A stretch of DNA of 64,000 nt, taken from contig JAJCXN010000041.1 of the NCBI GenBank assembly GCA_029263415.1, forward strand, positions 62,001-126,000, written 5' to 3'. The notes beneath the pieces were generated by a model, which saw nothing but the letters and a program-made list of their open reading frames with translations, did not search any database and was not told the origin of the DNA. Each line of letters begins with the position of its first letter. Position 1 is the stretch's first letter. Position numbers and translations under genes: made by a program. Positions 4,897 to 22,030 of the stretch are shown in pieces. Source of the stretch: Acidobacteriota bacterium (lineage in GTDB: Bacteria > Acidobacteriota > Thermoanaerobaculia > Multivoradales > Multivoraceae).

Positions 4897-5160
4897 AAGA
4901 TGCTCCGGCCGCGCCTGAGCTCGTTGGGTAGATGCGCCTTGCCGAGGCCGAAACTTCGTGCTCGATAAGTGGCGTGGTACCAAGCTTCGTCCCGGGAACA
5001 GCACTATCGTCGCCCTTTTGAGACAGCATCGTGTATCCAACAATTCACGGGTAGAGTGGGCTATCCAATACCGTGGTAGATGGACTCGAGACGGTTCAGC
5101 GTCCACCTCCTAGCCAGGTCACAACGGACACTCGGTCGGACACCTACCCACTGTTGATCG

Positions 5161-5412
5161 GTGCCGCAGCGCTCAGTACTGGACAGCGATCCGAGGCGCG
5201 CCATTTCTCTTGTAGGAACTCCAAAGACCTTGTCGCTTCCCGCTAGCATCGAAGCTAAGTACGAAGTTCTAGGCCGCCTTGGCGCGGGAGGAACGGGCGC
5301 TGTCTACAAGGTTCGCGGACGGTCTGGTCCTTGTGCCGAGAGGGGGGCCGCAAGCACGATTGCGGTGGTGAGCAGACTGGCTGCCGAAGGCAAGGTCACT
5401 AGCGCCATCTGA
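5161..5412 (+). pseudogene. Remnant of a Ser/Thr protein kinase gene (glycine-loop end only)
   Basis: Residues 28-52 of this 83-codon frame, ending in KYEVLGRLGAGGTGAVYKVR, match the N-terminal glycine-rich ATP loop of bacterial Hanks-type kinases (GxGGxGxVYKV). Everything that should follow is missing: no VAIK lysine, no HRD and no DFG. The similarity stops abruptly near 5316 and the remaining residues look random. I take it as a deletion remnant of a PknB-like kinase gene. It is interesting because FHA domains, readers of phosphothreonine, are encoded in the operon that follows. A chance match is unlikely given the length of the motif. Confidence 0.65.
5304..5408 (-). pseudogene. Signal-peptide stub of a lost secreted protein
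   Basis: A minus-strand ATG at 5408, with GGAG about eight bases upstream, opens a 34-codon frame. It encodes a textbook signal peptide (MALVTLPSAASL, then a hydrophobic stretch ending APLSAQ, with a likely cleavage after SAQ). Only eight residues follow before a stop. It looks like the surviving 5' end of an exported-protein gene truncated at about the same place (5316-5335) where the opposed kinase fragment ends. It could instead be a real tiny exported peptide. Confidence 0.45.
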
Positions 5413-5592: not shown

Positions 5593-7377
5593 GTGTTACC
5601 CATTGACCACAAAGATCATGGTTTTAGACGTGCCGGCATCATTGCGGCTGTTGCGACGGCTTCCTTGCTGCTGGTGGCATTCACCGGCGGACGGCAAGAG
5701 CCTGAAGACGAAGCGCTGAGTGCTGAAAAGGAACACGAAGCTCTCTTTCTCGAGAATCGCTTTCCGTCGGCCGCTACTTGCGCAACTTGTCATCCGGCTC
5801 ATTACCGTGAGTGGTCGGTGTCGCCGCATTCATATGCGCAGATGAGCCCGGTGTTCAACGCGATGCACGGCACGGTTCTCAAGCTTACTAACGGCACCAA
5901 CGGCGATTTCTGTATTCGATGCCACACCCCGGTAGGGATGAACCTGGGTGAGCCAGAGTTCATTAGCAACATGGACCGTCATCCGACTTCTCGCGAGGGA
6001 GTGACATGCATTGTCTGTCACCGGGTCAATAAGGCGTATGGGAAACTTTCTGGCCGCCTTGCCATCGTTGAAGGAGATCTCTTTGAACCGGTTTTTGGCC
6101 CGTCCGGCAACGATGAACTTGAGCGGGTCATTGAAAGCAGCGACTTTCGTGTCAACACCGAGCGCGGTCGCGCGGGACGTGCGATTCACACCAAAGCCGA
6201 GGAGTTCTTCCAGATTCGCACCTCAGGTCTGTGCGCCACCTGCCACGATGTGAATTTGGTGAACGGCTTCAGGCTCGAAGAGGCGTTCAGCGAGTTCAAG
6301 ACCTCACCAGCAGCGGCCCAGGGTCAGTCCTGCCAGGATTGCCATATGGGGACTGAACCAGGAGTGGCCTCAGGGTACGCTGAGGGCCCAGCCGCGATCA
6401 TCGGTGGGACTCCAACGACTTCGCGAAAGCGAACCGATCACATGTTCATCGGTCCCGACTATTCGGTTGTGCACCCGGGGATTTTCCCGCACAACCCAGA
6501 AGCCGCTGAGTTGGCCACCATCCGCCAGTGGCTCGAGTTCGATCACGAAGCAGGCTGGGGTACTGATGAGTTCGAAGATGAGATTCCAGAGGACTTCCAG
6601 TTTCCTGAACAATGGAAAGCTGCGGACGATCGCTACGACGCGCGCGACATTGTCACCGCGAATGAAGCGTTGCTTGCCGAAGCCGATCTGGCTCGCCAGC
6701 AGCTGCTGCGGGCGGGCTACCAATTCGGCGAGTTTTCTGTTGACCGTGCTGACGAAAGTGGGCTCGCTTTTCAGATTGAGGTGCGGAACGCGACCGCTGG
6801 TCACGGCGTTCCGACGGGGTTTGACGCCGAGCGGCTAGTTTGGTTGCAGGTGAGCGTCGTGGATTCGAACGGCGAGGTCGTCTTCGAATCCGGCGATCTG
6901 GACCCAAATGGAGATGTTAGGGATAGTCATTCTCTCTACGTTCACAACGGCGAGCTACCGCGGGACAAGCAACTCTTTAGTCTGCAGTCCAAGTTCGTCA
7001 CTCGCATGGTCCGCGGTGGCGAGCGGGAGCAAGTTCTAGCGGTCAATGAGTCGCCCGATCCTCTTCCCTTCTTGAGGCCGTCGACGTCTTCCACCATACT
7101 GACCGGAAGGCCCCGCGGAGTCCGCAAGCACAAACAGAACATTGAGCCACTTGGTAGACGATGGGCCAAGTACAAGGTGCCTCGATCGCGGTTGTCGGGT
7201 TCTGGCCCCTATGAGGTGAGAGTTCGGTTGATGGCGGCGATGGTGCCCATCAATTTGGTAGACGCCATTAAGGGTGTTGGGTTTGACTACGGGATGAGTG
7301 CGCGCGAAATTGCAGAGGGCGTGGTCGCTGGCCATCTCGTTCTGTGGGAACAGTCGCATCCCATCGTGAGGCAGTAA
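5593..7377 (+). CDS. Pentahaem cytochrome c (cytochrome c554-like), exported
   Basis: This is the first gene of the electron-transfer operon, 594 residues from the GTG at 5593. An AGAGGAG sequence about ten bases upstream favours this GTG over a TTG nine bases earlier. An N-terminal hydrophobic segment (about residues 14-32) directs export. Five CxxCH haem-binding sites lie at about residues 63 (CATCH), 107 (CIRCH), 139 (CIVCH), 214 (CATCH) and 247 (CQDCH), spaced as in cytochrome c554-type folds. The C-terminal 300 residues have no haem sites; they contain ATAGHGVPTGFDAERLVWL and look like a beta-rich domain often seen after c554 modules. Periplasmic or surface electron transfer is inferred. 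Confidence 0.88.
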   Translation: MLPIDHKDHGFRRAGIIAAVATASLLLVAFTGGRQEPEDEALSAEKEHEALFLENRFPSAATCATCHPAHYREWSVSPHSYAQMSPVFNAMHGTVLKLTNGTNGDFCIRCHTPVGMNLGEPEFISNMDRHPTSREGVTCIVCHRVNKAYGKLSGRLAIVEGDLFEPVFGPSGNDELERVIESSDFRVNTERGRAGRAIHTKAEEFFQIRTSGLCATCHDVNLVNGFRLEEAFSEFKTSPAAAQGQSCQDCHMGTEPGVASGYAEGPAAIIGGTPTTSRKRTDHMFIGPDYSVVHPGIFPHNPEAAELATIRQWLEFDHEAGWGTDEFEDEIPEDFQFPEQWKAADDRYDARDIVTANEALLAEADLARQQLLRAGYQFGEFSVDRADESGLAFQIEVRNATAGHGVPTGFDAERLVWLQVSVVDSNGEVVFESGDLDPNGDVRDSHSLYVHNGELPRDKQLFSLQSKFVTRMVRGGEREQVLAVNESPDPLPFLRPSTSSTILTGRPRGVRKHKQNIEPLGRRWAKYKVPRSRLSGSGPYEVRVRLMAAMVPINLVDAIKGVGFDYGMSAREIAEGVVAGHLVLWEQSHPIVRQ

Positions 7378-7403
7378 CCGTGCGACGAACGAGCGGGACA
7401 GAA

Positions 7404-8972
7404 ATGAAGAACAATCAAAAGGCGGCGGGATACTTGGTCCTCGCGGCAGTTGTATGCCTTCTTCAGCCCAGTTCGGTGTGGGCTGGGGGATCTGAGCAAG
7501 GCAGTGGATCTGAGCAAGGCACTGGAAAGGTCGCAGAAGCTTCGGTAGAGCTGCTCGCTGGTTCGACCGCCGGCCGAGACGAAGACGACGCAGCTCCGGA
7601 CGATGAAAGCGCAGGCCCAGGGAAAGACGCGCATAGCAGTAAGGCGACGCATGGGAGTCGTCTCAGTGACGAGCGCATCCCCCTGCAATTGGAAGGCTTT
7701 CCTCAGCGGCCCAAGCCGCTACTGGAGCTGGGAGAACCATTTCTCGGAACGGGCACGCTGAAACCAGGATTTCAGCTGCCGACGGGAGCAGTGTGGCAGC
7801 CCTCGTTGCTGATGTTCGGCACGCTGCGCACGGCAGTGCAGACGATTGATCAAGGCCAAGGAGAGGTTTCTGAACTGGCTGCCCGGCTCGACCTCTTCTT
7901 CAATTTGCAGCTGTCGGGATCCGAGCGCCTCGTGGTCGGCGTACGCCCACTTCAGCAAGACGGCCGGTTCACTCGCAGCGTCTTCTCCTCGGATCGTGCG
8001 GGAGTGCCAACAGGCGCTGAGTCCGAAGCCAATTTGGATGTTACGAGCTTGTTCTTCGAAGGTGACTTTGGCGAGATCTTTCCGAATCTCTCCCGCGAAG
8101 ATCATCGCGCCACAGATCTCGGTTTCTCGATCGGCCGCCAACCGATGTTCTTTCAAGAAGGCATCTTGATCAATGACGAGATCGACGGTGTGGGGATCAC
8201 CCGCAACACACTCCAGCCTAAAGGTTCGTCCAACTTTCGGGCAACGTTGTTCCTGGCTTGGAATGAGGTTGGCCGCTCCGGCGCGACCAACAACCTCGTC
8301 GACGACGATGCGCAACTCATAGCCCTGCTCACATCAACTGATGTTCGCCGCTCGACGGTCGACGCCGACTTGGCTTATGTGGCCTCTGACAACGGAGATC
8401 TATTCAGTGGTGGCGTGAGCGCAGTTCAGCGGATTGGCAAAGCAAATACCGCCTTTCGAGTCTTGGGCTCCTCAGCGTCTGGAAACGGCGCGCAGTTTGG
8501 TACCAGCGGAGCCTTGCTGTTCTCGGAGATCTCGTGGACACCTCACCACACTCACGATTTGTTCTACATTAATACCTTTGCTGCTTTCGATCATTTCTCA
8601 TCCGCAGCGCGAGGGCCGACCACCGGGGGCCCGCTTGGACGTGCGGGGATCGGGTTTGCCGCTGTGGGCCTGGGCAGCTTCGGCGCGCCCTTGAGTAACG
8701 ACTCCAGAGATGTTGCTGGCGGCGCGGTGGGTTATCAGAAGTTCTTCGAGCACAACCGAAGCCAGATCGTCTTTGAATTGGCGTCTCGCATCGGAACGGA
8801 CGAGTTGATTGAGGACGCGGTTGCGCTGACTGCTCGCTATCAGATAGCAGTAGGTCGACGCGGGGTGGTTGTCGTCGACGGCTTCTTTGGCCATCGGGGT
8901 AGCAATCGCAAGCTAGGAACGACGAGCGAGGATCTGTTGGGTGCCAGACTCGAATTTCTGCTCAAGTTCTAG
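7404..8972 (+). CDS. Outer-membrane beta-barrel (porin-like) protein of the cytochrome operon
   Basis: The ATG at 7404 begins a clear signal peptide (basic MKNNQK, hydrophobic core, cleavage near SVWAG), giving 522 residues. After an acidic low-complexity linker the protein consists of alternating short beta-like segments and ends in LEFLLKF, the terminal aromatic typical of outer-membrane barrels. No Cys or haem motif is present. I do not recognise a named family. Placed between two multihaem cytochrome genes, it could act like the barrel of porin-cytochrome conduits (MtrB/PioB-type), but sequence similarity to those was not established. Confidence 0.7.
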   Translation: MKNNQKAAGYLVLAAVVCLLQPSSVWAGGSEQGSGSEQGTGKVAEASVELLAGSTAGRDEDDAAPDDESAGPGKDAHSSKATHGSRLSDERIPLQLEGFPQRPKPLLELGEPFLGTGTLKPGFQLPTGAVWQPSLLMFGTLRTAVQTIDQGQGEVSELAARLDLFFNLQLSGSERLVVGVRPLQQDGRFTRSVFSSDRAGVPTGAESEANLDVTSLFFEGDFGEIFPNLSREDHRATDLGFSIGRQPMFFQEGILINDEIDGVGITRNTLQPKGSSNFRATLFLAWNEVGRSGATNNLVDDDAQLIALLTSTDVRRSTVDADLAYVASDNGDLFSGGVSAVQRIGKANTAFRVLGSSASGNGAQFGTSGALLFSEISWTPHHTHDLFYINTFAAFDHFSSAARGPTTGGPLGRAGIGFAAVGLGSFGAPLSNDSRDVAGGAVGYQKFFEHNRSQIVFELASRIGTDELIEDAVALTARYQIAVGRRGVVVVDGFFGHRGSNRKLGTTSEDLLGARLEFLLKF

Positions 8973-8993
8973 GGTGCTTCGCGAGTGTCGCCA

Positions 8994-11153
8994 ATGCAGC
9001 ACAAGTCGCCGTTGAAAGCCTGCTTGCCCCAGCGGGCAATTGAGTTTGCCTGCGCCGTTGTGGTGATCGCGTTTGGACCGACACTTGTCGAGGGTCAGCG
9101 CGCGAACTTTTCCGCTTTTTCGCGCGAGTCACCCGAAAAGATTGTCGGTTCTACCGTCTGCGGTGAGTGCCACATAGAAGAGTTCGAGGTGTGGAAGGAC
9201 ACGCCTCATGCAACCCAGTTTCGAGGACTGCATCGGACAGAGCCTGCTAGAGCGGTGGCCGACAAAATGGATGTCCGGCTCATGAAGCGAGACAGCGTTT
9301 GCCTCTCATGCCACTACACTCCGACCGAAAGGGGGGGCCAGATCCGGGCACTTTCCGGAGTTTCATGCGAGTCCTGTCATGGCGCGGCGCGAGACTGGAT
9401 CGACATCCACAATGACTATGGTGACGGATTCGACCGAGACACCGAGCCGGCTGAACATCGCGACGACCGGGTCTCTCGCAGTCGGGCTGCCGGCATGCGT
9501 CGACCCACGGACTTGTTCGAGACGGTTTCGAGCTGCTTCGGGTGTCACACCGTGCCGAGCGAACAACTGGTCAACCAAGGCGGCCACAGCACCGGGAGTG
9601 TGGGGTTCGAGCTAGTTGAGTGGTCTCAAGGCCAGATTCGCCACAACTTTCTCGAATCGTCCTTGTCTGGCGACGGTTCCGGAAACCGAGAACGCTCCCT
9701 AGCTGAGAAGCGGCGGATGTATGTTGCCGGCCGTGCTCTTGATGTCGAATTCACTCTGCGCGGCCTAGCCGAAGCAGAGGTGGAGGGTACCTATGCGAAG
9801 GCGATGGGACGGCGAGTAAGGGTGACCTTGCTTGAACTCAGAAAGATCTTGCAACGAGTGCCGGTGCCGGAGTTGGAGGCCATCCAAGCGCTGGTGGCAG
9901 ATGTCAAGGCTGTGCCGAACAATCGCGAGGCGCTGTTGCAGGCTGCGGATCGTGTAGCGGTATCGACTCGACAGTTCTTGGATTCCTATAGCTCAGATCA
10001 ACTGGCGGACATAGATCCGTTGATCTTGGGCACGGCGACCACGGAGCCTGACCCGGAACCGACCGAAACTGAAGACACCGTGACCGCAGAGGCGCCGCTG
10101 AGCGGGTCTTCTGTAGAGCCCAAAGCAACCGGTGAGGTTGCGACGAGCGAGACGGTCACGACCTCGTCAGGCCCGGCAGCGGCAACCCGAGATCCTGGCC
10201 AGCCTGCGGTCGGCAGGTTCAAACGAAGAGTCCGGCCGCGGCCTGACCACTCAACCTTGGGTCCTGGCGCGTGCGGTGGTTGTCATGAGACTGCGAATCA
10301 ATGGCTAGCAACGGATCCGCACTATCGTTCCGCTGATCCGTTTCTTCAAGCCAATCCGGCCAACGTCAAGATCGCTCGCCTTTTTGGTCTCAAGACGGCT
10401 CAGATGGGCTTAGGGAATCAGATCTGCATGGATTGCCATGGGACTGTCATCACGGGCAACGAGGACTTCGATGTGATCGATGGTGTGAGCTGTGAGAGTT
10501 GCCACGGCGCGGCGAAGGACTTCCTGGAACCGCACAAGGAAGGTGAGAAGTCGTTGGGCACTAGCCGGCCGGGCTACGTTGATGCGCTTGGTCTGGGGAT
10601 GGTGAAACTGCAGGATCTAAACGTGCGCGCCACCCAATGTACTGGCTGTCACTACATAACGGAACCACGGCTCATCTCCTCAGGCCATTCGAGCGGTCGC
10701 GATTTTGACTACGCTGACGCAATGACGAAGATTCGCCACTGGGAACGCCAGCCAGCTAGTGGTGCCGAGATCAACAGATCCTTTTCAGCTGCATTGGCAA
10801 AGCGCGGTGGCGTTCCGGACGTGGTGTTGGCTCGACTTCCTGAAGCGGTTCCTCGGACAGGCGCTAGTGTCGCTGCGCGGCAAGACGGGTCTGAACGCAG
10901 CCCGCGGCTAGAGTCCTCGACCGGCGCAGCGTGGAACGCGCCACGACCACGACCCCGCTCCCTCACACCGTTGTCGGCAAGCACTTCAACGCAGGGAAGA
11001 CCTTTTCCTGCGGCGGCGATCGGACAGCTAGAGTTACCACCGTTTCCGGAAGTATCCGAAAACACCACTATTGAGGACCTCCTCTTGATCTTGAAGGGCC
11101 GGCTCGAACTGCTTCACTCTGCGCTTGAATCAAAAAAGGGGGCTAGACCCTGA
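8994..11153 (+). CDS. Octahaem cytochrome c built of two tetrahaem repeats
   Basis: This is an exported cytochrome of 719 residues from the ATG at 8994; a GTG at 8985 is an alternative. Haem sites are CGECH, CLSCH, CESCH and CFGCH near residues 56, 103, 125 and 181, and CGGCH, CMDCH, CESCH and CTGCH near 427, 478, 500 and 549. The spacings (47/22/56 and 51/22/49) and the repeated GVSCESCHGAA block show internal duplication of a cytochrome c554-like tetrahaem unit. A helical stretch and a Thr/Glu/Pro-rich linker join the halves, and a Pro/Arg-rich tail follows. The signal peptide ends near LVEGQRA. It is probably a periplasmic electron wire of the operon. Confidence 0.88.
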   Translation: MQHKSPLKACLPQRAIEFACAVVVIAFGPTLVEGQRANFSAFSRESPEKIVGSTVCGECHIEEFEVWKDTPHATQFRGLHRTEPARAVADKMDVRLMKRDSVCLSCHYTPTERGGQIRALSGVSCESCHGAARDWIDIHNDYGDGFDRDTEPAEHRDDRVSRSRAAGMRRPTDLFETVSSCFGCHTVPSEQLVNQGGHSTGSVGFELVEWSQGQIRHNFLESSLSGDGSGNRERSLAEKRRMYVAGRALDVEFTLRGLAEAEVEGTYAKAMGRRVRVTLLELRKILQRVPVPELEAIQALVADVKAVPNNREALLQAADRVAVSTRQFLDSYSSDQLADIDPLILGTATTEPDPEPTETEDTVTAEAPLSGSSVEPKATGEVATSETVTTSSGPAAATRDPGQPAVGRFKRRVRPRPDHSTLGPGACGGCHETANQWLATDPHYRSADPFLQANPANVKIARLFGLKTAQMGLGNQICMDCHGTVITGNEDFDVIDGVSCESCHGAAKDFLEPHKEGEKSLGTSRPGYVDALGLGMVKLQDLNVRATQCTGCHYITEPRLISSGHSSGRDFDYADAMTKIRHWERQPASGAEINRSFSAALAKRGGVPDVVLARLPEAVPRTGASVAARQDGSERSPRLESSTGAAWNAPRPRPRSLTPLSASTSTQGRPFPAAAIGQLELPPFPEVSENTTIEDLLLILKGRLELLHSALESKKGARP

Positions 11154-11194
11154 GCGATCTAACGGATATCGGTAGCGCCACCCATGGCAAAACC

Positions 11195-12835
11195 ATGCTT
11201 CGGCGTATGGAGCAATATCAGGACCGTTGGACCTCGTATGGTGCCACCACTGGGTTGATGACGATTTCCGACAAACTGTCGGTAGAGCAGCTCCGAGATT
11301 ACGAGCTGTTCGCAGAGTATGAGGATCGGTTTCTAGAAAAAATCAGCCCTGACGTCTCGGTTGCCTTCTGGCAGAAAGACGCCACTCTCTTTGAGCAAGG
11401 GTCTTATATTGATGTGGCTTTCTTCGTACTTGAGGGAAAGATCGACGTCTACGTCGAGGAGACGGAGCATGCGGCGACTGGGCCGGTGCCGATCGTTGCC
11501 GCGCCGGAGGACCAGGCCGACGACAATGGCCCCAGCACAGCGCCGGTGGCGATGGCGACCTCACTTGCGACCTCACTTCCGCCCTCACTTGCGACCACAC
11601 CTAGCGTCGGCAGCGCCAACTCGGTAACCCAACCCGGAGAGATTCGGTTCTTGTCGGCGCTCGACTTTGATCTACCGGCTGGGGTTGCTGCTCGGCTCGA
11701 ATCCGGTGAAGTTGTCGGCGAAATTGGAGCCATGAGTGGTTGGCCTCAGTCGGTCACAGCGCGAACAGTTACCGACTGCTTGCTGATTCAGATCCGAGTG
11801 CCTGCCTTGCGCTTGATGAAGCGTCGATCGGAAGGCCTGACGGCAAGGCTAGACGCCATGTATCGAGAGCGCTCTCTTGCCGCTCAGCTACGCAGTACTC
11901 AGCTCCTGCAAGACTGCCCGGATGAAGTATTCGAGATGTTGGAGCGGGGCGCGGAGTTGGTGTCGTGTCAACCCGACGAAGTTCTCGTGCGGGAAGGAGA
12001 GCGAACTGACTCCCTCTTTTTGGTGCGATCTGGCTTTGTCAAGTTGAGTCAATCGTTTGGCGAGGGCGAGATTGTCTGTACGTACATCTCGAAGGGTATG
12101 ACCTTCGGAGAGGTCGAACTGTTGCTGGACGGTATTGATGTGAGTGAGGTGACGGCCAGCTCGGTTGAGTATGCCGAGTTGGTTCGACTGCCCGGGAACA
12201 TCGTCGCCAGGGCGCTGGGTGATTTTCCAAAGCTCGAGGAGCGGCTGTGGAAGACGGCCACCTCACAGATCTCAGCGGCAGGCTTCTCGAAGCGCAATAT
12301 TGACCACTCCGAGTTCACTCAGGCGGCATTGGATACTGGCCTCGTTCAGGGCAACAGTATCTTGACGATTGACCTAGAGCGGTGCACCCGGTGCGACGAC
12401 TGCGTTCGTGCCTGCGCTGCGACGCATGGGGGGCGTCCGCGCTTCGTCAGAGAGGGGAGTAAGTACAAGAACTTTCAGATCGCGAAATCCTGCTACCACT
12501 GCCACGACCCTGTGTGTCTAGTGGGCTGCCCGACGGGGGCAATCCACCGGGCGGGCATTGGTGAATCGATCAAGATCGATGACCCAATTTGCATCGGCTG
12601 TGGCACGTGCGCTGGCAATTGCCCGTACGACGCGATCGTGATGCACGAAACTGAGGAAACGTGGCCGGCAGATATGGTGCCGGTTGGTTTGAGGGGCAAG
12701 CCGCGGCTGGTGGCCAGCAAGTGTGATCTGTGCGCTGACAGCCCAACTGGTCCGGCCTGCGTCAACGCGTGCCCACAAGGGTGCGCCGTTCGGGTCAGCA
12801 ATCTCGACGAATTTGAAGAGCTGCTGCGCCGCTAG
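11195..12835 (+). CDS. Cyclic nucleotide-binding domain / four-[4Fe-4S] ferredoxin fusion
   Basis: This 546-residue cytoplasmic-looking protein has no signal peptide. Residues 40-205 form one CRP-type cyclic nucleotide-binding domain interrupted by a low-complexity insert (Ala/Thr/Ser/Leu/Pro repeats). Residues 225-370 form a second CNBD. From residue 397 there are 16 cysteines in four clusters: CTRCDDCVRAC, CYHCHDPVCLVGC, CIGCGTCAGNC and CDLC-x8-CVNAC, the pattern of DmsB/HybA-type electron-transfer subunits. It probably feeds electrons to the membrane cytochrome b encoded next, with the CNBDs gating or localising it. The frame is open upstream to a CTG at 11150 overlapping the previous stop and preceded by AAAGGGGG, so the true start may be there. 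Confidence 0.88.
   Translation: MLRRMEQYQDRWTSYGATTGLMTISDKLSVEQLRDYELFAEYEDRFLEKISPDVSVAFWQKDATLFEQGSYIDVAFFVLEGKIDVYVEETEHAATGPVPIVAAPEDQADDNGPSTAPVAMATSLATSLPPSLATTPSVGSANSVTQPGEIRFLSALDFDLPAGVAARLESGEVVGEIGAMSGWPQSVTARTVTDCLLIQIRVPALRLMKRRSEGLTARLDAMYRERSLAAQLRSTQLLQDCPDEVFEMLERGAELVSCQPDEVLVREGERTDSLFLVRSGFVKLSQSFGEGEIVCTYISKGMTFGEVELLLDGIDVSEVTASSVEYAELVRLPGNIVARALGDFPKLEERLWKTATSQISAAGFSKRNIDHSEFTQAALDTGLVQGNSILTIDLERCTRCDDCVRACAATHGGRPRFVREGSKYKNFQIAKSCYHCHDPVCLVGCPTGAIHRAGIGESIKIDDPICIGCGTCAGNCPYDAIVMHETEETWPADMVPVGLRGKPRLVASKCDLCADSPTGPACVNACPQGCAVRVSNLDEFEELLRR
11560..11595 (+). repeat. 12-bp tandem repeats in the CNBD insert
   Basis: Three consecutive units close to GACCTCACTTGC encode the Thr-Ser-Leu-Ala-type low-complexity insert within the first cyclic nucleotide-binding domain. 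The unit length keeps the frame. Confidence 0.6.
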
Positions 12836-12849
12836 GAGGTCGTGTCGTC

Positions 12850-13689
12850 ATGACTCGCAACAAAAAGACGAAGAGACGGTCTCAAGGTGGGTTCTGGCGC
12901 AGGGCCTTTGTCGCTGGCTTGGTTGGCTGTTTCATGGCGCTGGTAGCGAAGGCGGTGCTATCTGAAATTGTGTCCCGCGCGACCTGGGTTACTGCTTACG
13001 GTATCGCCGCGGCGGTTTTCCTGCTCCTGGTGAGTCTGTATGGCGTGCGCAGACGACTGGCATGGTTGGCGGCGCGCATTCCGATTGGAAGCGTCCGCTC
13101 TTGGCTATATCTCCATCTCTACGGTGGCGTGCTGTTCATACTCCTGGTGTTCATGCATAGCGACTTCAGCGTGCCAACGGGGAAGGTGACTCTCTGGCTC
13201 TGGCTGTTGAGCATCTGGACGGTACTCAGCGGTTTCTTCGGTCTGGCTCTGCAGCAGTGGTTGCCCAGAGTTCTTGGTGCAGGGCTCGAAACTGAAGTGC
13301 TGTATGAGCGGATCCCGGAGTTGGTGGCAGAAATCCGAGAGAAGGCAGAGACGCTGGTCGAAGCGTCGAGCGATCCTGTTAAGGCGCTGTACTCTAGGCG
13401 CCTCGCCCCCGTTCTAGCGAGCCCGCATCGGCGGTTGATGTTCTTTCTTGACATCGGTGGCGGCGAATCCAATAGTCTGCGAGAGATCGAGTTTCTGAGG
13501 CAGAAGATGCCAGCTGAGGAGAAGCTTCGGCTGGACCAACTGGCGCGCTTGGTGGCGACCAAGCGAGAGATCGACGCGCAGTACACAGTCCAAGGACCCT
13601 TGCGATGGTGGTTGTTCACCCACGTTCCGTTGTCGATGGTGGTGTGGGCGTTGCTGATCCTCCACGTCTTCGCGGTGTTGTACTACTAG
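12850..13689 (+). CDS. Dihaem membrane cytochrome b-like protein
   Basis: A 279-residue integral membrane protein with about five hydrophobic segments (near 18-40, 48-65, 85-104, 113-135 and 255-277) and a cytoplasmic-looking helical loop at 150-245. Two helices each carry a pair of histidines separated by 13 residues: H89/H103 and H258/H272. Paired H-x13-H in two helices is the classic arrangement for two stacked b haems, as in bc1 cytochrome b and ferric reductases. No named family was recognised. The start ATG at 12850 follows AGGAGG by ten bases. It sits between a soluble FeS protein gene and an anchored decahaem cytochrome gene, so transmembrane electron transfer is the likely role. Confidence 0.78.
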   Translation: MTRNKKTKRRSQGGFWRRAFVAGLVGCFMALVAKAVLSEIVSRATWVTAYGIAAAVFLLLVSLYGVRRRLAWLAARIPIGSVRSWLYLHLYGGVLFILLVFMHSDFSVPTGKVTLWLWLLSIWTVLSGFFGLALQQWLPRVLGAGLETEVLYERIPELVAEIREKAETLVEASSDPVKALYSRRLAPVLASPHRRLMFFLDIGGGESNSLREIEFLRQKMPAEEKLRLDQLARLVATKREIDAQYTVQGPLRWWLFTHVPLSMVVWALLILHVFAVLYY

Positions 13690-13707
13690 TGCTGGATGAG
13701 AAGCTAG

Positions 13708-15303
13708 ATGGCTGATGAACAGAAGGTTGGAAGCAAAGGCACCTTTTCGAAGGCGCGGCTGTCGGTGTCGGCTAAGTACTTGGTGCCGGCTAGACGAACA
13801 CAGTTGTTGATGATCGGTGCGCTTGGGTTCTTGGGTCTGGTCGCTGTAGCCAGTTTCGACTTTCTCAGTTCAGAGCCGCGCTTGTTGTCCAATGGTCCGC
13901 TGTCATCGAACCACGCCAGCTACGACCAGAATTGTTCCGCGTGTCATGCTAGCCCGGGGAAAGTCACCGATGAGGCATGTTCATCGTGCCATGAGCAGTT
14001 TGGTGATCCAATCGGCGTCTTCTCGTTTGATTCTCATTATCTGTATCGCTCTGATGATTTTCAAAGGATCGTTCCTTCGGAGCATGAGACGCCCTGCTTT
14101 TCGTGTCACATCGAGCACGAGGGGAGAGCTGCAGAGATCACGCAAGTGGCCGATCGCCAGTGTCTCGACTGTCACGATTTCGGTGCCTTCGATGCCGACC
14201 ACCCAGAGTTCGACTTCGCAGCATCGCGTTCACCGGCTGAGGGTGGCCTCAAGTTTGCGCATACTCACCACGTGAAGGAACTGCTGTCCAAGCGTGGTTG
14301 GCAGGATGTCGAGAAGGCTTGCGCTAGCTGCCATGAGCCGGAACCGGATGGCGTGCAGTTTCAGTCTCTCGATTTCGACACTCATTGCGGTGAGTGTCAC
14401 CTTCCGGCAACGCTGCGGACCGATCCACTGCCGATCCGCTCTGCTCGAAGAGACGCCGTTACCGGCGTCGAGACGCTGTCTGAGATCCAGTCCGGTGGTG
14501 AGGCCGGAGCCCGCTGGTCGTACTTTCTCAATCCAGCTGAGTTTCGTGAAGCTGGCGGACGGCTAATCAAGTCGCCGCTCTATCATCGTGATCCCTGGGT
14601 GCTCCACAATCTGCGGAAACTACGGCGTCAGCTCTTCCCGTCCGCTGGGCTGGCCGATCTCTTGGTCGGAACCGCAGACGTACCTCCCGCGGAACTCGAG
14701 GCCCTCTACCACGAAGCAGTGGGCACTCTGCGCGGCTACGCGCTAGAGCTGCGTTCACGACCAGAGCGGGAGGTCCAAGACGATCTCAAACGGATTTCCA
14801 GCTTGTTGGATCAGCTCGAGAGGCGGCTCGCCGACCCCTACGCGCCCCTTGACGAGTCGAAGTTCGTGCTTGCGCTTGGTCCGCCGGCGACCTTGACTGA
14901 CGAGGTTCGGGCTGAGATCGAGAGCGTGGTTGAGACGTTGACCAAAGAATGTCAGGAATGCCATGAACTCGAGAACGCCACGATCGTAAGGGTTCAAGAG
15001 CTACAGAGCCTACATAGGGCCGAATTCAACCACCGCCCTCATACCTTGCAAAGGCGCTGTCTCGACTGTCATCAAGAAATCCCAATTCAGGAAGGCTTGC
15101 AAGGCGACGCCGCCGTCGATGCTGCGCTCGACAATGCCGGGATCCACAACGTTCCACAGATCGGCCTCTGTCAGGATTGCCACAATGCGAAGCAGGTAGC
15201 GAGCACCTGTGTGACTTGCCATCAGTTTCATCCCAGCAAGAACCAAGGATCAACTCACGCGTTGTACCCGGAAGAAGCGAACGAAGACGAGGAAGATCGG
15301 TGA
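13708..15303 (+). CDS. Membrane-anchored decahaem cytochrome c
   Basis: 531 residues with an uncleaved-looking N-terminal membrane anchor (about residues 31-50, after a basic start). Ten CxxCH sites are visible. Six lie in the N-terminal half, near residues 76, 91, 129, 151, 204 and 226. Four lie in the C-terminal part, near 414, 450, 487 and 500. They are separated by about 180 mostly helical residues without haem sites. Many extra histidines (for example THHVKE and HRPHT) could be distal ligands. It probably takes electrons from the cytochrome b encoded 18 bases upstream. Its acidic C-terminus overlaps the next gene (GTGA). Confidence 0.88.
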   Translation: MADEQKVGSKGTFSKARLSVSAKYLVPARRTQLLMIGALGFLGLVAVASFDFLSSEPRLLSNGPLSSNHASYDQNCSACHASPGKVTDEACSSCHEQFGDPIGVFSFDSHYLYRSDDFQRIVPSEHETPCFSCHIEHEGRAAEITQVADRQCLDCHDFGAFDADHPEFDFAASRSPAEGGLKFAHTHHVKELLSKRGWQDVEKACASCHEPEPDGVQFQSLDFDTHCGECHLPATLRTDPLPIRSARRDAVTGVETLSEIQSGGEAGARWSYFLNPAEFREAGGRLIKSPLYHRDPWVLHNLRKLRRQLFPSAGLADLLVGTADVPPAELEALYHEAVGTLRGYALELRSRPEREVQDDLKRISSLLDQLERRLADPYAPLDESKFVLALGPPATLTDEVRAEIESVVETLTKECQECHELENATIVRVQELQSLHRAEFNHRPHTLQRRCLDCHQEIPIQEGLQGDAAVDAALDNAGIHNVPQIGLCQDCHNAKQVASTCVTCHQFHPSKNQGSTHALYPEEANEDEEDR

Positions 15304-16256
15304 AGGCCAGACTGATTGTTAAGACGGGCGAATTCAAGGGCGCCACGTTTGAGGTAGCCGGTAGCGTGATCATTGGCCGAGCTGAGGACAACGAGGTGTA
15401 TCTGCCATCTGACCTCATCTCCTCCAAGCATGCTCGGATCATCCTGGATGAGTCTGCCAACGTGTTCTTTCTTGAGGACCTCGGAAGCCTCAACGGGACG
15501 GAGCTCGATGGGGTTCGGTTGGCGAGTCGTGAGCGACTCGACCGATTGCACGTTATCCGTCTTTCAGGAGCAGTTGACCTCATTTGGCAAGGAGCTGCAC
15601 TTGTTGCTGACCAGACTACGGACGGCGACGGAACGTCGCGGAAGGCAGTGGACCGTGTGACCTTGACCGAGAGGCTGCCGGCGATTCCACCGACACCTCT
15701 GGCGAGGGCTCAGAGCAAGCCTGAGCCCCCAGTCGAGGCGGTTGCCTCTCCTAGGCCCCGCTCTCATGGCCTGCCGCAATCTCCCGCCCAACAGGAGTCT
15801 GGATTGGACACGATATCGGAGGGAACTGCGATTGATCTAAAGGCGATCCTCAGAGGGCCTGACTTCGCCGGCTTCATGCAAGAGGCGAAACCCTTGCGGT
15901 CGGCTGGCGAGGTGGACGACGGTGTTGGGTCTGCTCAGCCGAAGGACGCTAGCGCGCCGATAGCGAGCCTTGCACTGTGCGTGGTCGAAGGGGCAACCAA
16001 GCGATGCTATGTGTTGGAGCAAGGAGAGAATTGGGTTGGCAACGACCCAGACGCAAGAGTGGCGCTATTCCACCACAGCGTGCGAACTGAGCATGCTGTC
16101 CTGAGCGTTGCTGGGGCTCGAGTAGTGCTTAGGGACCCGAACGGAACTGGTGAGACCACGGTTGATGGGCAGGCGTTCTCGGGCGAAATCGAGGTGGCTA
16201 TAGGATCCGTCATTAGGTTCGGAGAAGTAGCAGTTTCCATAGAACGCCCCGAGTGA
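15300..16256 (+). CDS. Double FHA-domain protein
   Basis: 318 residues from the GTG at 15300, which overlaps the stop of the decahaem gene (GTGA) and follows GAGGAAG. The N-terminal FHA domain (about residues 4-85) has all key residues: IIGR, SSKHA and SLNGT. The C-terminal one (about 225-315) is degenerate: the Arg of GR is Asn (VGND) and the Ser-x-x-His is RTEHA. The centre is a Pro/Ser-rich linker. FHA domains bind phosphothreonine peptides, so the protein may bridge a kinase signal to the redox enzymes of the operon. No signal peptide, so cytoplasmic. Confidence 0.88.
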   Translation: MKARLIVKTGEFKGATFEVAGSVIIGRAEDNEVYLPSDLISSKHARIILDESANVFFLEDLGSLNGTELDGVRLASRERLDRLHVIRLSGAVDLIWQGAALVADQTTDGDGTSRKAVDRVTLTERLPAIPPTPLARAQSKPEPPVEAVASPRPRSHGLPQSPAQQESGLDTISEGTAIDLKAILRGPDFAGFMQEAKPLRSAGEVDDGVGSAQPKDASAPIASLALCVVEGATKRCYVLEQGENWVGNDPDARVALFHHSVRTEHAVLSVAGARVVLRDPNGTGETTVDGQAFSGEIEVAIGSVIRFGEVAVSIERPE

Positions 16257-16263
16257 CTCCCCA

Positions 16264-18561
16264 TTGAGCGACGAGCAATCAGTAAGACAGAGCAATCTGC
16301 AAGCGAGCCCCGATCGGGTTCATGACCAACAACTGGATTTGCTGGTCGTGGGCGGTGGTCCCGGCGGGACGGCGACTGCATTTCGAGCGAAAGAGCTGGG
16401 ATTAGAGGTCCTCGTCATCGACTATGACGACCTGATGAAGCGAATCCGGGACTACTCAAAGGACAAGCTGATTCTGCCTGGCTTCGGAGGTGGCGATCGG
16501 CTTCGCTTTCCCAAGGGTGAGGAGCTGATCGCGAGCTTGAGTTTTGCAGCGATTGACAAGGACGACCTTCACCAGGGCTGGAAGAAGCTTTACGAGCAGC
16601 ACGGTGTTGAGGCTCAGACCGGCGTGGAGCTCACCGCAATCCAGCAAGATTTCGACGGTGTTCATCAAGTCCAGGCGTGGGACCACAAGAACAGATGCGG
16701 AGTCCGGTTTGCTGCGCGACACGTTGCGATCGCTATCGGTCGCGGTGTTCCTCGGCGATTCAATATTCCCGGCGACACCGCCGGAATTGCACTGCGCCTC
16801 AAGAATCCCGAGTCCTATGTTGGGCTTCCAGCCTGTGTGATCGGCGGCGGTACTTCCGCCGCGGAGGCAGTGGTTGCGCTGTCGGAAGTCAAAGCGGCAG
16901 CGAACGACGCCTCACCGGTGTACTGGTCATACCGCGGCGAACGGATGCCGCGAGTGTCAAAAGCGCTGGCAGATGTGTTCTTTGAAGCCTATGTGGGCAA
17001 TGGCAACATCCGGTACTACCCCAACAGCGAACCGACCGCGGTGATTACCGCCGAGGATCGCGCAGAGTACCTTTGCATTCGCACCGACCGTCGCTGGATT
17101 GAAGGGCGGCCGAACGAAACCACTCACCTGGAGTTTCCCAAAGGGTGCTGTCTTGCTTGCATTGGCGAAGACATGCCTGAGAGCTTGCTCGCGACTTTGG
17201 GCGCACCGCTTGTGGAGGGCGGCCCGAAGGGCAGAAAACGTGCCCTCGTGAATCGATTTCTCGAGACCCGCGTGCCGAACCTCTACTTGGTTGGAGACCT
17301 ATTGAGTCAGGCCTACTTCGAAGCGGAGAATTTCGATTGTGATCCTGCGGTCTTGAGCGAAGTAAAGCATCCGGGCAACATAAAGTCGGCCCTCCGAGAC
17401 GGCGTTCGCGTTGCGCAGATCGTGCGTCAGAGGATCGACGGCAAGATTGAGGTCTCGATCGAGATCGAAGATGGAGAAGAGCTAGGACCGCTCTCGGGAA
17501 TGGTTCCCTGGGTGGCTGCCGCGAGTGCGACAACACCCGAAGACCTGGAGCGCACCCCGGAACCGGCATCGTTGGTACATATCTTTGTCGGCGGCGAGAT
17601 CGAGGAGCACGCTCTCGTTGAATGGTCCGTCATGACCATCGGGCGAAGAGGCTGCGACATCAATTGTCCCGACGACACTCTGCTGTCAGACAAGGATGCT
17701 TCGGTGTCGGCGACTGCTAGTGGCTTTGTGCTCAGGGATGACGGCAGTTCCGCCGGTGTTTTCTTGGAATTGGCGGCAGCACGAAAGTTCGAGGTAGAGG
17801 CTGGCGACTTGGTCCGTTGTGGTCGTCAGTTCTTGCGAGTTGACAAAACGCACGGTCAAGGTATGGAGTTGGTTCACTTCGGAGACCGCGGCCGGGAGGT
17901 TGGCCGGTATCCGTTGGCGGAAGGCTCGATCGTGCTTGGCCGGAGGGGAGCGGATGTGATCCTTGACCGTTCGGATAGGACGCTGTCCCGGCGCCACCTT
18001 TCGTTCACTAGGACGGGCGACCGCCTTGAGGTGAAAGACCTCAAGAGCGCGAACGGGACGCTGCTTCGGGTTTGCGAGGGGATGTCCATTGGGCATGGCG
18101 ACCGTTTTCGCGTAGGTGAACAGACGTTTGGATTGAACTTGAAGGGTGACGCGGCGCAGGTATTTGCAGCACCGAGCCGAGCATCCGTTAGTCCGGCTGC
18201 TTCTGAGGAAGCTACCTTGAGTCCGTCCGAAGAGCGCGAGTCGCCACCAGCAGATTCCGGCGACCCTTCGATCGCGCCATCGGTGACCTTCTCTCCAAGC
18301 GGGAAATGCGTCGCTGTCAAGCCTGGCCAGACGATCTGCGAGGCAGCCGAGGCCGCAGGTGTTGCGATCAACGTTGAGTGCCGCGCGGGCATTTGCGGAA
18401 GCGATCCCATCCGGATCGTCTCCGGGCAGGAGTTCCTGGTCAGCGGGCCCGATCGTCAGGAGACTGAGACGCTTGAGGATCTTTGCAACCTGGAAGCGGG
18501 GCCTTGCCGCTTGGCCTGCCAGTTGAGGATTACGGGACCGGTCGAGGTCGAGATTCTCTAG
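16264..18561 (+). CDS. FAD/NAD(P) reductase fused to two FHA domains and a [2Fe-2S] ferredoxin-like domain
   Basis: 765 residues from the TTG at 16264 (MSDEQS...). Residues 24-410 resemble thioredoxin-reductase/YpdA-type flavoproteins: FAD motif VVGGGPGG near 28-35 and a nucleotide site VIGGGTSAAEA near 195-205. No CxxC active site was seen. Two FHA domains follow: the first (about 437-540) has LSDKDA in place of Ser-x-x-His, the second (about 540-630) keeps LGRR, LSRRH and SANGT. The C-terminal 90 residues resemble a plant-type ferredoxin with CRAGIC at 706-711, but the expected third ligand Cys is Asp714; a later RLAC supplies the last Cys. It is probably the NAD(P)H-linked electron entry point of the operon. 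Confidence 0.85.
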   Translation: MSDEQSVRQSNLQASPDRVHDQQLDLLVVGGGPGGTATAFRAKELGLEVLVIDYDDLMKRIRDYSKDKLILPGFGGGDRLRFPKGEELIASLSFAAIDKDDLHQGWKKLYEQHGVEAQTGVELTAIQQDFDGVHQVQAWDHKNRCGVRFAARHVAIAIGRGVPRRFNIPGDTAGIALRLKNPESYVGLPACVIGGGTSAAEAVVALSEVKAAANDASPVYWSYRGERMPRVSKALADVFFEAYVGNGNIRYYPNSEPTAVITAEDRAEYLCIRTDRRWIEGRPNETTHLEFPKGCCLACIGEDMPESLLATLGAPLVEGGPKGRKRALVNRFLETRVPNLYLVGDLLSQAYFEAENFDCDPAVLSEVKHPGNIKSALRDGVRVAQIVRQRIDGKIEVSIEIEDGEELGPLSGMVPWVAAASATTPEDLERTPEPASLVHIFVGGEIEEHALVEWSVMTIGRRGCDINCPDDTLLSDKDASVSATASGFVLRDDGSSAGVFLELAAARKFEVEAGDLVRCGRQFLRVDKTHGQGMELVHFGDRGREVGRYPLAEGSIVLGRRGADVILDRSDRTLSRRHLSFTRTGDRLEVKDLKSANGTLLRVCEGMSIGHGDRFRVGEQTFGLNLKGDAAQVFAAPSRASVSPAASEEATLSPSEERESPPADSGDPSIAPSVTFSPSGKCVAVKPGQTICEAAEAAGVAINVECRAGICGSDPIRIVSGQEFLVSGPDRQETETLEDLCNLEAGPCRLACQLRITGPVEVEIL

Positions 18562-21694: not shown

Positions 21695-22030
21695 GTGAGG
21701 CTCCTTCGAGGGTTCGAAAGCGATGGATGCGAGTTTCAGGGAAGGCCGGAAACCGTGACGAGAGGTTGCGTCTTTTGGCACTACGCGCAGCGGTGCTGGC
21801 AGTTTCGAGCAGGCTGGAGTATATCGAGAGTTCGAGGCGCCCGCTTTGGGAGAATCAGCCGCGCCGTACGGTCGCGGCTGATTTCGGTCAAAGCCCGTCA
21901 CCACGCCTGCGCTTTGAGGCTAAGTGCCTGGCGCTGACCGACCAGTTCGTCCGTTCGTAGTGTCATCTCGGGCTCTAGCGATCAGGGTCCGGTGCAGTCC
22001 GGTGCCATCGCCCTCGCAATCTTGGCCGGC
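21695..22030. other. Intergenic region with a terminator-like hairpin
   Basis: 336 bases between two minus-strand genes. It should hold the promoter of the monooxygenase-like gene and the 3' region of the S9 peptidase gene. The hairpin at 21855-21881 is the only clear structure. Confidence 0.5.
21855..21881 (-). terminator. Possible terminator hairpin downstream of the S9 peptidase
   Basis: A perfect 9-bp stem TCAGCCGCG / CGCGGCTGA with a 9-base loop, about 150 bases after the peptidase stop. The minus-strand tail is ATTCTCCC, lacking a proper T run, so termination is uncertain. It could also be a protein-binding palindrome. Confidence 0.4.

Follow-up and report, generated by a model that had tools for sequence, protein, structure and literature searches.

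The 64,000-nucleotide stretch analysed here, hereafter the window, comes from an Acidobacteriota bacterium (contig JAJCXN010000041.1, positions 62,001–126,000; source genome of 6.89 Mb in 60 contigs, 99.2% complete). At positions 5593–18561 it carries eight consecutive plus-strand open reading frames (ORFs) for a pentahaem cytochrome (gene 1), a predicted beta-barrel (gene 2), an octahaem cytochrome (gene 3), an iron-sulfur protein with cyclic-nucleotide-binding domains (CNBDs; gene 4, the CNBD/4Fe-4S protein), a membrane cytochrome b (gene 5), a decahaem cytochrome (gene 6), a double-FHA protein (gene 7) and a flavoprotein fused to FHA and ferredoxin domains (gene 8). We think it rather probable that this cassette is devoted to electron export and draws its electrons from NAD(P)H instead of quinol. 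The cassette is more than a chance assembly because its gene order recurs in other phyla, and the proposed wiring rests on more than operon order because natural gene fusions, the strongest evidence for connection of the parts, join neighbouring steps. The anatomy of the locus, its conserved order, the fusions, the swaps of parts and the residue patterns reported below are direct observations.

Recurrence was first apparent in searches of 147 genomes, the window's own included. The gene 5 search gave a match in 54 genomes, with E ≤ 1e-50 in 23; gene 8 was found at E ≤ 1e-30 in 23 genomes, 22 of them shared with the strong cytochrome b matches, and gene 1 at an identity of at least 73% in 23 (one a partial match, at 82%), 22 again shared with cytochrome b. 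A scan of relatives with one genome per species, using an alignment of the CNBD protein (A1) as query, yielded at least 531 confirmed relatives, of which the best 80 (L074–L153) were kept; locus counts refer to these 80 only, and a further set, L034–L053, overlaps with them in genomes. In 53 of the loci (near set) the CNBD protein shares 44% identity or more with that of the window, and in the other 27 (distant set) it shares 30–37%. Genes were labelled by similarity to a reference set, except that the octahaem genes of L091 and L122 and the cytochrome b gene of L104 were identified by ORF-level searches. All eight genes stand in order on one strand in 13 of the 25 near loci that have at least 6.5 kb on both sides of the CNBD gene, and all 25 keep the order of a four-gene core (tetra- or octahaem cytochrome, CNBD/4Fe-4S protein, cytochrome b and decahaem cytochrome), with cytochrome b fused to the CNBD protein in five. 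The earlier note on this DNA, made from its letters alone, had asked whether homologues would keep this synteny or lie scattered; they keep it.

The records of the full-order loci are titled Acidobacteriota, KSB1, Rhodothermota, Bacteroidota and Gemmatimonadota, plus one Deltaproteobacteria (L078), which we did not count as another phylum. Titles in the near set as a whole are Acidobacteriota, Zixibacteria, Ignavibacteriota, Rhodothermota, Gemmatimonadota, Nitrospirota, Myxococcota, Bacteroidota, Calditrichota, Chlorobiota and KSB1, and those in the distant set are Pseudomonadota, Planctomycetota, Acidobacteriota, Verrucomicrobiota, Myxococcota, Nitrospirota and Nitrospinota. In a tree of 84 rows made by a quick method from the CNBD/Fe-S part of the protein, the window joins the near set, minus two short near rows left out of the tree, in a single starred group that comprises 52 rows. 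Along this tree the outer module (genes 1 and 2 or their replacement) changes four times and the flavoprotein three times; both counts include L125, mislabelled PYR3 through a hit to an NDH-2-like CNBD protein encoded on the opposite strand, and rest on labels that are missing for 35 of the 84 rows (outer module) and 27 of the 84 (flavoprotein), many of them from contig ends.

Fusions join several neighbouring components. The CNBD/4Fe-4S protein is followed by cytochrome b in one ORF in four KSB1 loci (L111, L113, L117 and L118), in Caldithrix (L112, where the ORF reaches the contig end) and in a Nitrospirota record (L119), and the pentahaem cytochrome is followed by the barrel in one ORF in L108 and L109 (Acidobacteriota records, one titled Vicinamibacterales). 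In the 12 type B loci (L054–L061, L063, L064, L068 and L071), from the same class as the window and in two cases from the same order, a single ORF matches a Pyr_redox_3 FAD domain, CNBDs and 4Fe-4S motifs (by Pfam for L068 and L061, by BLAST for the others); a decahaem match lies beside cytochrome b in 11 of the 12. In a Nitrospinae locus (L142), one ORF combines Fer2, FAD_binding_6, NAD_binding_1, CNBD and 4Fe-4S domains. Two types of NAD(P)H flavoprotein have thus each been joined to the same iron-sulfur protein. Flavoproteins of the FNR type with Fer2 occur in 15 of the 27 distant loci (one of them fused, the other 14 separate genes, four of which were run through Pfam) compared to none of the 53 near loci. 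FHA domains, too, are found fused to the chain: in a Nitrospirales locus (L140:1522–4098, plus strand) two of them share an ORF with the CNBD/4Fe-4S protein. The path proposed in the earlier note, from NAD(P)H through FAD and iron-sulfur centres and cytochrome b to c-type cytochromes, gains support from these fusions, from the exchange of flavoprotein types in one slot and from the histidine pairs of gene 5 described below, which are predicted to lie at both membrane faces.

Within the window, coordinates, domain contents (Table 1) and the intergenic gaps, which in order are 26, 12, 41, 14, 18, −4 and 7 bases, confirm the eight-gene electron-transfer operon, with the contents that the earlier note had assigned to it. 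Its 23 CxxCH haem sites are found as 5 + 8 + 10 motifs in the cytochromes of genes 1, 3 and 6, all of which have an N-terminal hydrophobic segment, and its four FHA domains as two Pfam stretches each in genes 7 and 8. A 24th CxxCH, at residue 433 of gene 4, lies within a 4Fe-4S motif of a protein that has no N-terminal hydrophobic segment, and we therefore do not take it as a haem site. The putative start codons are GTG for genes 1, 3 and 7 and TTG for gene 8.

Table 1. Genes and domains of the cassette; positions refer to the window.
Feature	Position	Strand	Content
Gene 1	5593..7377	+	Pentahaem c-type cytochrome; 5 CxxCH, Cytochrome_C554 (Pfam), N-terminal hydrophobic segment
Gene 2	7404..8972	+	Beta-barrel (structure model), AlgE/MOMP/OprD-like
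Gene 3	8985..11153	+	Octahaem cytochrome; Cytochrome_C554 in two stretches (Pfam), N-terminal hydrophobic segment
Gene 4	11195..12835	+	Two cyclic-nucleotide (cNMP)-binding folds, then four [4Fe-4S] motifs (16 Cys); no signal segment
Gene 4, second cNMP-binding stretch	11960..12211	+	Residues 256–339, best Pfam stretch
Gene 4, 4Fe-4S region	12356..12784	+	Residues 388–530, Fer4
Gene 5	12850..13689	+	Five-helix membrane cytochrome b; H89/H103, H258/H272
Gene 6	13708..15303	+	Decahaem cytochrome; 10 CxxCH, Cytochrome_C7 (Pfam), one N-terminal hydrophobic segment
Gene 7	15300..16256	+	Double-FHA protein (two FHA stretches, Pfam)
Gene 8	16264..18561	+	NAD(P)H-type flavoprotein (Pyr_redox), two FHA, one [2Fe-2S] ferredoxin domain
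Gene 8, Pyr_redox_2 domain	16336..17304	+	Residues 25–347, Pfam
Gene 8, second FHA domain	17932..18117	+	Residues 557–618
Gene 8, Fer2 domain	18289..18531	+	Residues 676–756

NADPH oxidases and ferric reductases hold their b haems by histidine pairs about 13 residues apart on transmembrane helices (TM) 3 and 5. The four histidines of gene 5 are invariant in 40 of 40 rows and form two H-x13-H pairs, H89/H103 on the third hydrophobic helix and H258/H272 on the fifth, a pattern that agrees with the earlier assignment of two b-haem sites. Lysine plus arginine average 3.2 and 5.2 per sequence in the loops predicted to be cytosolic compared to 0.7 and 0.6 in those outside; this positive-inside pattern would place the N-terminus, the TM2–3 loop and a soluble part (residues 143–248) in the cytosol, the TM1–2 and TM3–4 loops and the C-terminus outside, and hence one haem-ligand pair at each membrane face. 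No Pfam family scored above its cut-off for gene 5. PF01794 gave no match at E ≤ 0.1 and a probability of at most 1% in profile comparison by hhalign (12 members); a PF01794 search of the same genome returned one other gene (C41:246926–247300) and not gene 5. PF01292 (Ni_hydr_CYTB/b561-type) scored 12.8 bits against a cut-off of 30.1, over the last 29 residues only, and 2% in a profile comparison that is weak because the alignment held mis-framed ORFs. With the structure model of gene 5 (predicted local distance difference test score, pLDDT, 93.8), Foldseek returned no PDB match at E ≤ 0.001, and in a second structural comparison STEAP1/4 and SpNOX reached Z scores of 8.0, 7.9 and 7.4, within the range of unrelated helical bundles. 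A PHROGs scan gave no match for gene 5 or for gene 2. On sequence grounds we reject membership of gene 5 in the NOX/ferric reductase family (PF01794) or in PF01292.

A related cytochrome b also occurs in type C clusters (L062:8928–12479, L066, L070 and L073:12213–16411), beside 20-haem proteins and very large multihaem cytochromes; single ORFs of L062 and L073 carry 46 and 53 CxxCH motifs, respectively, and some of these clusters also have FAD-4Fe-4S or FNR-type flavoproteins.

At the other end of the chain, gene 8 matched proteins of the thioredoxin reductase, ferredoxin and FHA kinds weakly in a PDB sequence search. We considered and rejected a thioredoxin or bacillithiol disulfide reductase (TrxR or YpdA): the YpdA model scored 50.9 bits against a cut-off of 339.9, and the sole CxxC in residues 1–400 of gene 8 and five relatives is a C-x-A-C near residue 296, away from where the redox CxxC of TrxR usually lies. 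The Fer2 domain (PF00111) scored 28.5 bits, above its cut-off of 21. Plant- and ISC-type [2Fe-2S] ferredoxins bind their cluster through C-x4/5-C-x2-C-xn-C. In gene 8 the third ligand position is Asp714 rather than cysteine in all 32 readable rows, leaving the domain short of the usual four cysteines; Cys741, kept in 29 of 29 readable rows, could be a substitute ligand. The five FNR-type proteins examined retain the usual third cysteine. As a separate observation, an NDH-2-like NADH dehydrogenase with a C-terminal cNMP-binding domain (Pyr_redox_2, NDH2_C and cNMP_binding by Pfam) adjoins the CNBD/4Fe-4S cluster at L125:2600–4240 (minus strand).

In the NAD(P)H-fed export chain that we favour, gene 8 would transfer hydride from NAD(P)H to FAD, and single electrons would move on by way of the gene 8 [2Fe-2S] domain to gene 4, in the cytosol, with its four [4Fe-4S] clusters. 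From there electrons would reach the cytosolic-side haem of gene 5, then its second haem at the periplasmic side, and from this haem the membrane-anchored decahaem (gene 6) and octahaem (gene 3) cytochromes, with the pentahaem-porin pair of genes 1 and 2 acting as an exchangeable outer-membrane outlet or as a terminal reductase. We infer the cofactor loading, the order of the electron steps, the outward direction, the gating and the final acceptor. Every part is reversible in principle, and the same proteins might instead oxidise a periplasmic or extracellular donor and generate NAD(P)H by sending electrons through cytochrome b with help from the membrane potential. The best Pfam and NCBIfam relatives of gene 3 are c554/CycA, and the tetrahaem c554 of ammonia oxidisers takes electrons from a periplasmic oxidase. 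We nevertheless judge reverse flow improbable, given that, with no pump, it would take a strong donor to drive electrons uphill to NAD(P)+ and that no recurring oxidase gene was recognised in the cassette, although only genes resembling the reference set were labelled in the 80 loci and one may have been missed.

Gene 3 consists of two c554-like tetrahaem halves (CxxCH at residues 59, 106, 128 and 184, and at 430, 481, 503 and 552); its PDB sequence search matched c554 over residues 55–160 only, with two weaker matches besides. A single tetrahaem form of the protein occurs in many distant loci, and the octahaem protein is, judged by sequence, a doubled form of it. Gene 1 has a conserved C-terminal domain carrying H-x-x-P-T-G. 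For gene 2, no Pfam or NCBIfam family was found at E ≤ 0.1. Its structure model (pLDDT 79; good from residue 93, with low confidence for residues 1–92) has 18 strands of transmembrane length, and MOMP, AlgE and OprD/OccK porins head the 50 PDB matches listed (E 1e-11 to 2e-7). The barrel called earlier is thus upheld by the model, and its unspecific description is corrected to an 18-strand AlgE/OprD-like porin. The decahaem model TIGR03508 (MtrA/DmsE) scored 31.5, 20.1 and 14.9 bits for genes 1, 3 and 6, respectively, against a cut-off of 192.2; on the 18-strand model and the lack of a DmsE-type match, we reject an Mtr-type conduit.

Pentahaem proteins are 61–78% identical to gene 1 in 21 of the 30 loci with a match, and the pentahaem is the best conserved part among near loci. 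Within the 53 near loci a pentahaem match was found in 21 and a barrel in 23, compared to HbpS-like, Big and 10-haem matches in 8, 11 and 12, respectively, with contig ends hiding some. The HbpS-like/Big/10-haem set replaces the pentahaem and barrel in KSB1, Zixibacteria, Chlorobi and Ignavibacteria records; LVIVD repeats are present in the one 10-haem protein scanned, that of L080. In two Verrucomicrobia loci, L151 and L153, the pentahaem is 64% and 62% identical to that of the window and the CNBD protein only 30%. In the genomes of L077 and L084 a pentahaem-barrel pair lies on another contig without the core (L160 and L159, respectively), and a distant pair (36% and 28% identity) is likewise apart from the core in L156; L155 lies on a 4158-base contig, too short to judge whether its pair stands alone. 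These identities, and the pairs on other contigs, suggest that the pentahaem-barrel pair moves separately from the core, and the pair tends to remain together, as far as the sequences indicate, when it does so. As a further observation on outer-membrane genes, a DUF5777 beta-barrel gene follows the decahaem gene at L111:16003–17247 (by Pfam) and likewise in L113, L117 and L118 (by BLAST), preceded in three of these four loci by a Ser/Thr kinase gene.

The likeness of gene 2 to the substrate porins AlgE, OprD/OccK and MOMP and the strong conservation of the pentahaem bear on a different use of the same chain, in which it would feed a soluble periplasmic substrate such as an N- or S-oxide, the penta- or octahaem protein being the enzyme and the porin admitting the substrate. 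MsrPQ-type systems work as periplasmic reductases. The pentahaem-barrel fusion in L108 and L109 and the replacement of the pair by the 10-haem set would suit surface exposure better, and we consider a periplasmic reductase unlikely.

Several observations weigh against NAD(P)H-fed export to the outside. Flavoproteins of these families can run either way, so they do not fix the direction. The two b haems of gene 5 rest on the histidine pattern because the protein belongs to no known family by sequence, and a quinone site on it is possible. The 18 strands modelled for gene 2 would make a narrow barrel, which argues against an MtrB-like sheath for a multihaem wire. The L077 and L084 loci have neither pentahaem nor barrel at the core, and genome G028 has no strong pentahaem match (best E 4.6e-13); the outer module is therefore not obligatory. 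The KSB1 fusion loci L111, L113, L117 and L118 have no flavoprotein within the fetched DNA, and in L043/L081, which are one genome (77% complete), the decahaem gene is followed by neither an FHA nor a flavoprotein gene although the contig continues. Finally, in L092 an octahaem-like gene (28% identity) stands two genes further up, apart from the CNBD gene.

The control input of the cassette appears to differ between branches. CNBDs that respond to cAMP or cGMP have a conserved Glu and Arg in the phosphate-binding cassette. Gene 4 keeps its 16 ligand cysteines in 83 of 83 rows and, in the first CNBD (CNBD1), E176 in 81 of 81 readable rows, while residue 185 of CNBD1 is Gln in 52 of the 81 (the window included), Arg in 26 and Val or Ile in three. 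Near loci have Gln at this phosphate-binding Arg position in all 51 readable cases, compared to Arg in 24 of the 27 distant loci and Val or Ile in three; the second CNBD of the window has Glu308 and no Arg at the corresponding place. Because Gln replaces the phosphate-binding Arg, cyclic-nucleotide control is unlikely in the window's clade, and for the window we reject the second-messenger control that the earlier note had proposed; the cNMP-binding folds of this clade may be remnants or docking modules.

Matches to class III nucleotidyl cyclases were found in the fetched DNA of 9 of the 24 Arg loci (one below the Pfam cut-off) compared to 1 of the 51 Gln loci, and FHA or FHA-flavoprotein genes beside 39 of the 51 Gln loci compared to 3 of the 24 Arg loci; the two comparisons amount to one contrast, confounded with descent, because Gln marks the near branch and Arg the distant one. 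The cyclase domain exceeds the Pfam cut-off in 10 of the 11 matching loci (L106, L125, L133, L134, L137, L141, L144, L145, L148 and L149) and falls below it in L138. With its Arg residues and cyclase matches, the distant branch fits cyclic-nucleotide control, and control would have changed from cyclic nucleotide to phosphothreonine. Two Acidobacteriota records carry FHA-GAF-nucleotidyl cyclase proteins beside the core (L125:4888–6555 and L133:7653–9275, both plus strand).

FHA domains that bind phosphothreonine carry the signature G-R, S-x-x-H and N-G. In the first FHA domain of gene 7 these residues are kept in 40 (G), 29 (R), 38 (S), 39 (H) and 37 (N) of 40 rows, and in the second FHA domain of gene 8 G559, R560, S575, R576 and N597 are present in 33 of 33 rows, with His in 25 and Gln in 8. 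The other two FHA domains of the window are degenerate: in gene 8 Asp stands in place of the His at residue 478, and in gene 7 the G-R pair has become G-N. Of the 32 near loci whose DNA extends at least 1.5 kb past the cassette, 14 have a Ser/Thr kinase gene that begins no more than 3 kb downstream, in nine cases on the strand of the cassette and in five on the opposite one, where about 2.5% per locus would be expected from the density in the window's own genome (57 genes, 59 matches, 6.9 Mb), a figure applied to all genomes with related loci treated as independent. These genes were identified as kinases by BLAST similarity to a single KSB1 kinase, with Pfam run on three; the downstream kinase of L035 and L036 is a response-regulator/kinase fusion. 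Phosphothreonine control, also proposed earlier, is therefore plausible from the canonical residues of two FHA domains and the downstream kinases. Phosphothreonine marks set by Ser/Thr kinases might assemble or gate the cytosolic end of the chain.

In the window itself the queries used matched neither a kinase nor a cyclase, and all that is present is a remnant resembling a kinase. An open frame of 84 residues immediately upstream of the operon (5158–5412, plus strand) contains a kinase-like stretch, KYEVLGRLGAGGTGAVYKVR, at 5257–5316, and we take the frame to resemble the broken-off start of a Hanks-type Ser/Thr kinase.

The kinase genes downstream of near loci and the cyclase matches in 10 of the 27 distant loci would also be in keeping with a redox sensor or signalling complex, in which the cytochromes sense the outside and the CNBD and FHA modules relay their state to kinases. 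We hold this to be very improbable, since sensing would hardly call for 23 c-type haems and an NAD(P)H flavoprotein, and since it is the electron path that forms the conserved core and the signalling parts that vary.

Beyond NAD(P)H-fed export in the window itself, the loci suggest, more tentatively and with somewhat less than even confidence on our part, a widespread class of export systems in two-membrane bacteria that bypass the quinone pool. Such a class would combine a conserved core (tetra- or octahaem c554, CNBD/4x[4Fe-4S] protein, a new family of two-haem cytochrome b, and decahaem cytochrome) with three exchangeable sockets: the flavoprotein (Pyr_redox or FNR), the outlet (pentahaem-porin or HbpS/Big/10-haem) and the control input, which in Planctomycetes and some others would be cyclic nucleotide, with a cyclase nearby, and in the window's clade phosphothreonine/FHA, with kinases nearby.

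The cassette shares features with several known systems. Like NOX, STEAP and SpNOX proteins and the bacterial MsrQ-MsrP with its flavin reductase, it would use cytosolic NAD(P)H and FAD and the same histidine-pair spacing on TM3 and TM5 to bring electrons to the far side of the membrane; it differs from these systems in lacking a PF01794 match or profile similarity, in having its flavoprotein as a separate gene, in its four intervening [4Fe-4S] clusters and in its multihaem c-type acceptors. MtrCAB, Pcc, Ext and Mto/Pio likewise place multihaem cytochromes beside a barrel and feed them from an inner-membrane cytochrome. MtrB-type barrels have 26 strands, and Mtr-like inputs are quinol oxidases such as CymA, CbcL and ImcH; unlike these conduits, the cassette has an 18-strand porin model, a c554-type pentahaem partner and an NAD(P)H flavoprotein as its input. 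The relatives L108 and L109 recall Cyc2 in having a cytochrome fused to a porin-size barrel. The cytochrome domain of Cyc2 holds one haem, compared to five haems in a large domain here, and in the window the two parts are separate genes. Ndh2-EetAB-PplA, the flavin-based export system of Gram-positive bacteria, also dedicates an NADH dehydrogenase branch to export, whereas the cassette belongs to a two-membrane envelope with multihaem cytochromes. Systems of the Hmc, Tmc, Qrc and Nrf type share a 4 x [4Fe-4S] protein with a membrane subunit and multihaem c; NCBIfam families scored by gene 4 include DmsB, HydN, DsrO and NrfC, none of the best 25 of 67 reaching its cut-off, and gene 4 differs from its counterparts in having no signal segment, in its cNMP-binding folds and in its pairing with an NAD(P)H flavoprotein.

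The components are therefore of known kinds, and what appears new is the family of the cytochrome b, the wiring, which seems to do without quinone, and the exchange of control inputs. Among the matches listed from open-licence PMC papers we found no published description of the locus; this does not prove its absence from print. If our reading is correct, many bacteria not usually counted among metal respirers (marine Acidobacteriota, Planctomycetes, Verrucomicrobia, Marinobacter sp. CHS3-4 and Sulfidibacter corallicola M133) would own a regulated NAD(P)H-driven electron route beyond the inner membrane that bypasses the quinone pool. The export could then be traced in metagenomes by a set of markers, a new family of cytochrome b would become available for study, and nature would offer an experiment in which control inputs are swapped on a fixed chain. 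The hypothesis is testable, as two carriers have records that are not titled as metagenome bins.

Two further ORFs lie near the operon. Upstream, positions 1936–4896 (plus strand) hold a long ORF for a helicase-like protein, which from its motifs we take to be of SNF2/SWIM appearance. At positions 19910–21904 on the minus strand, a 664-residue ORF carries a CxxCH motif (CITCH) in its N-terminal part.

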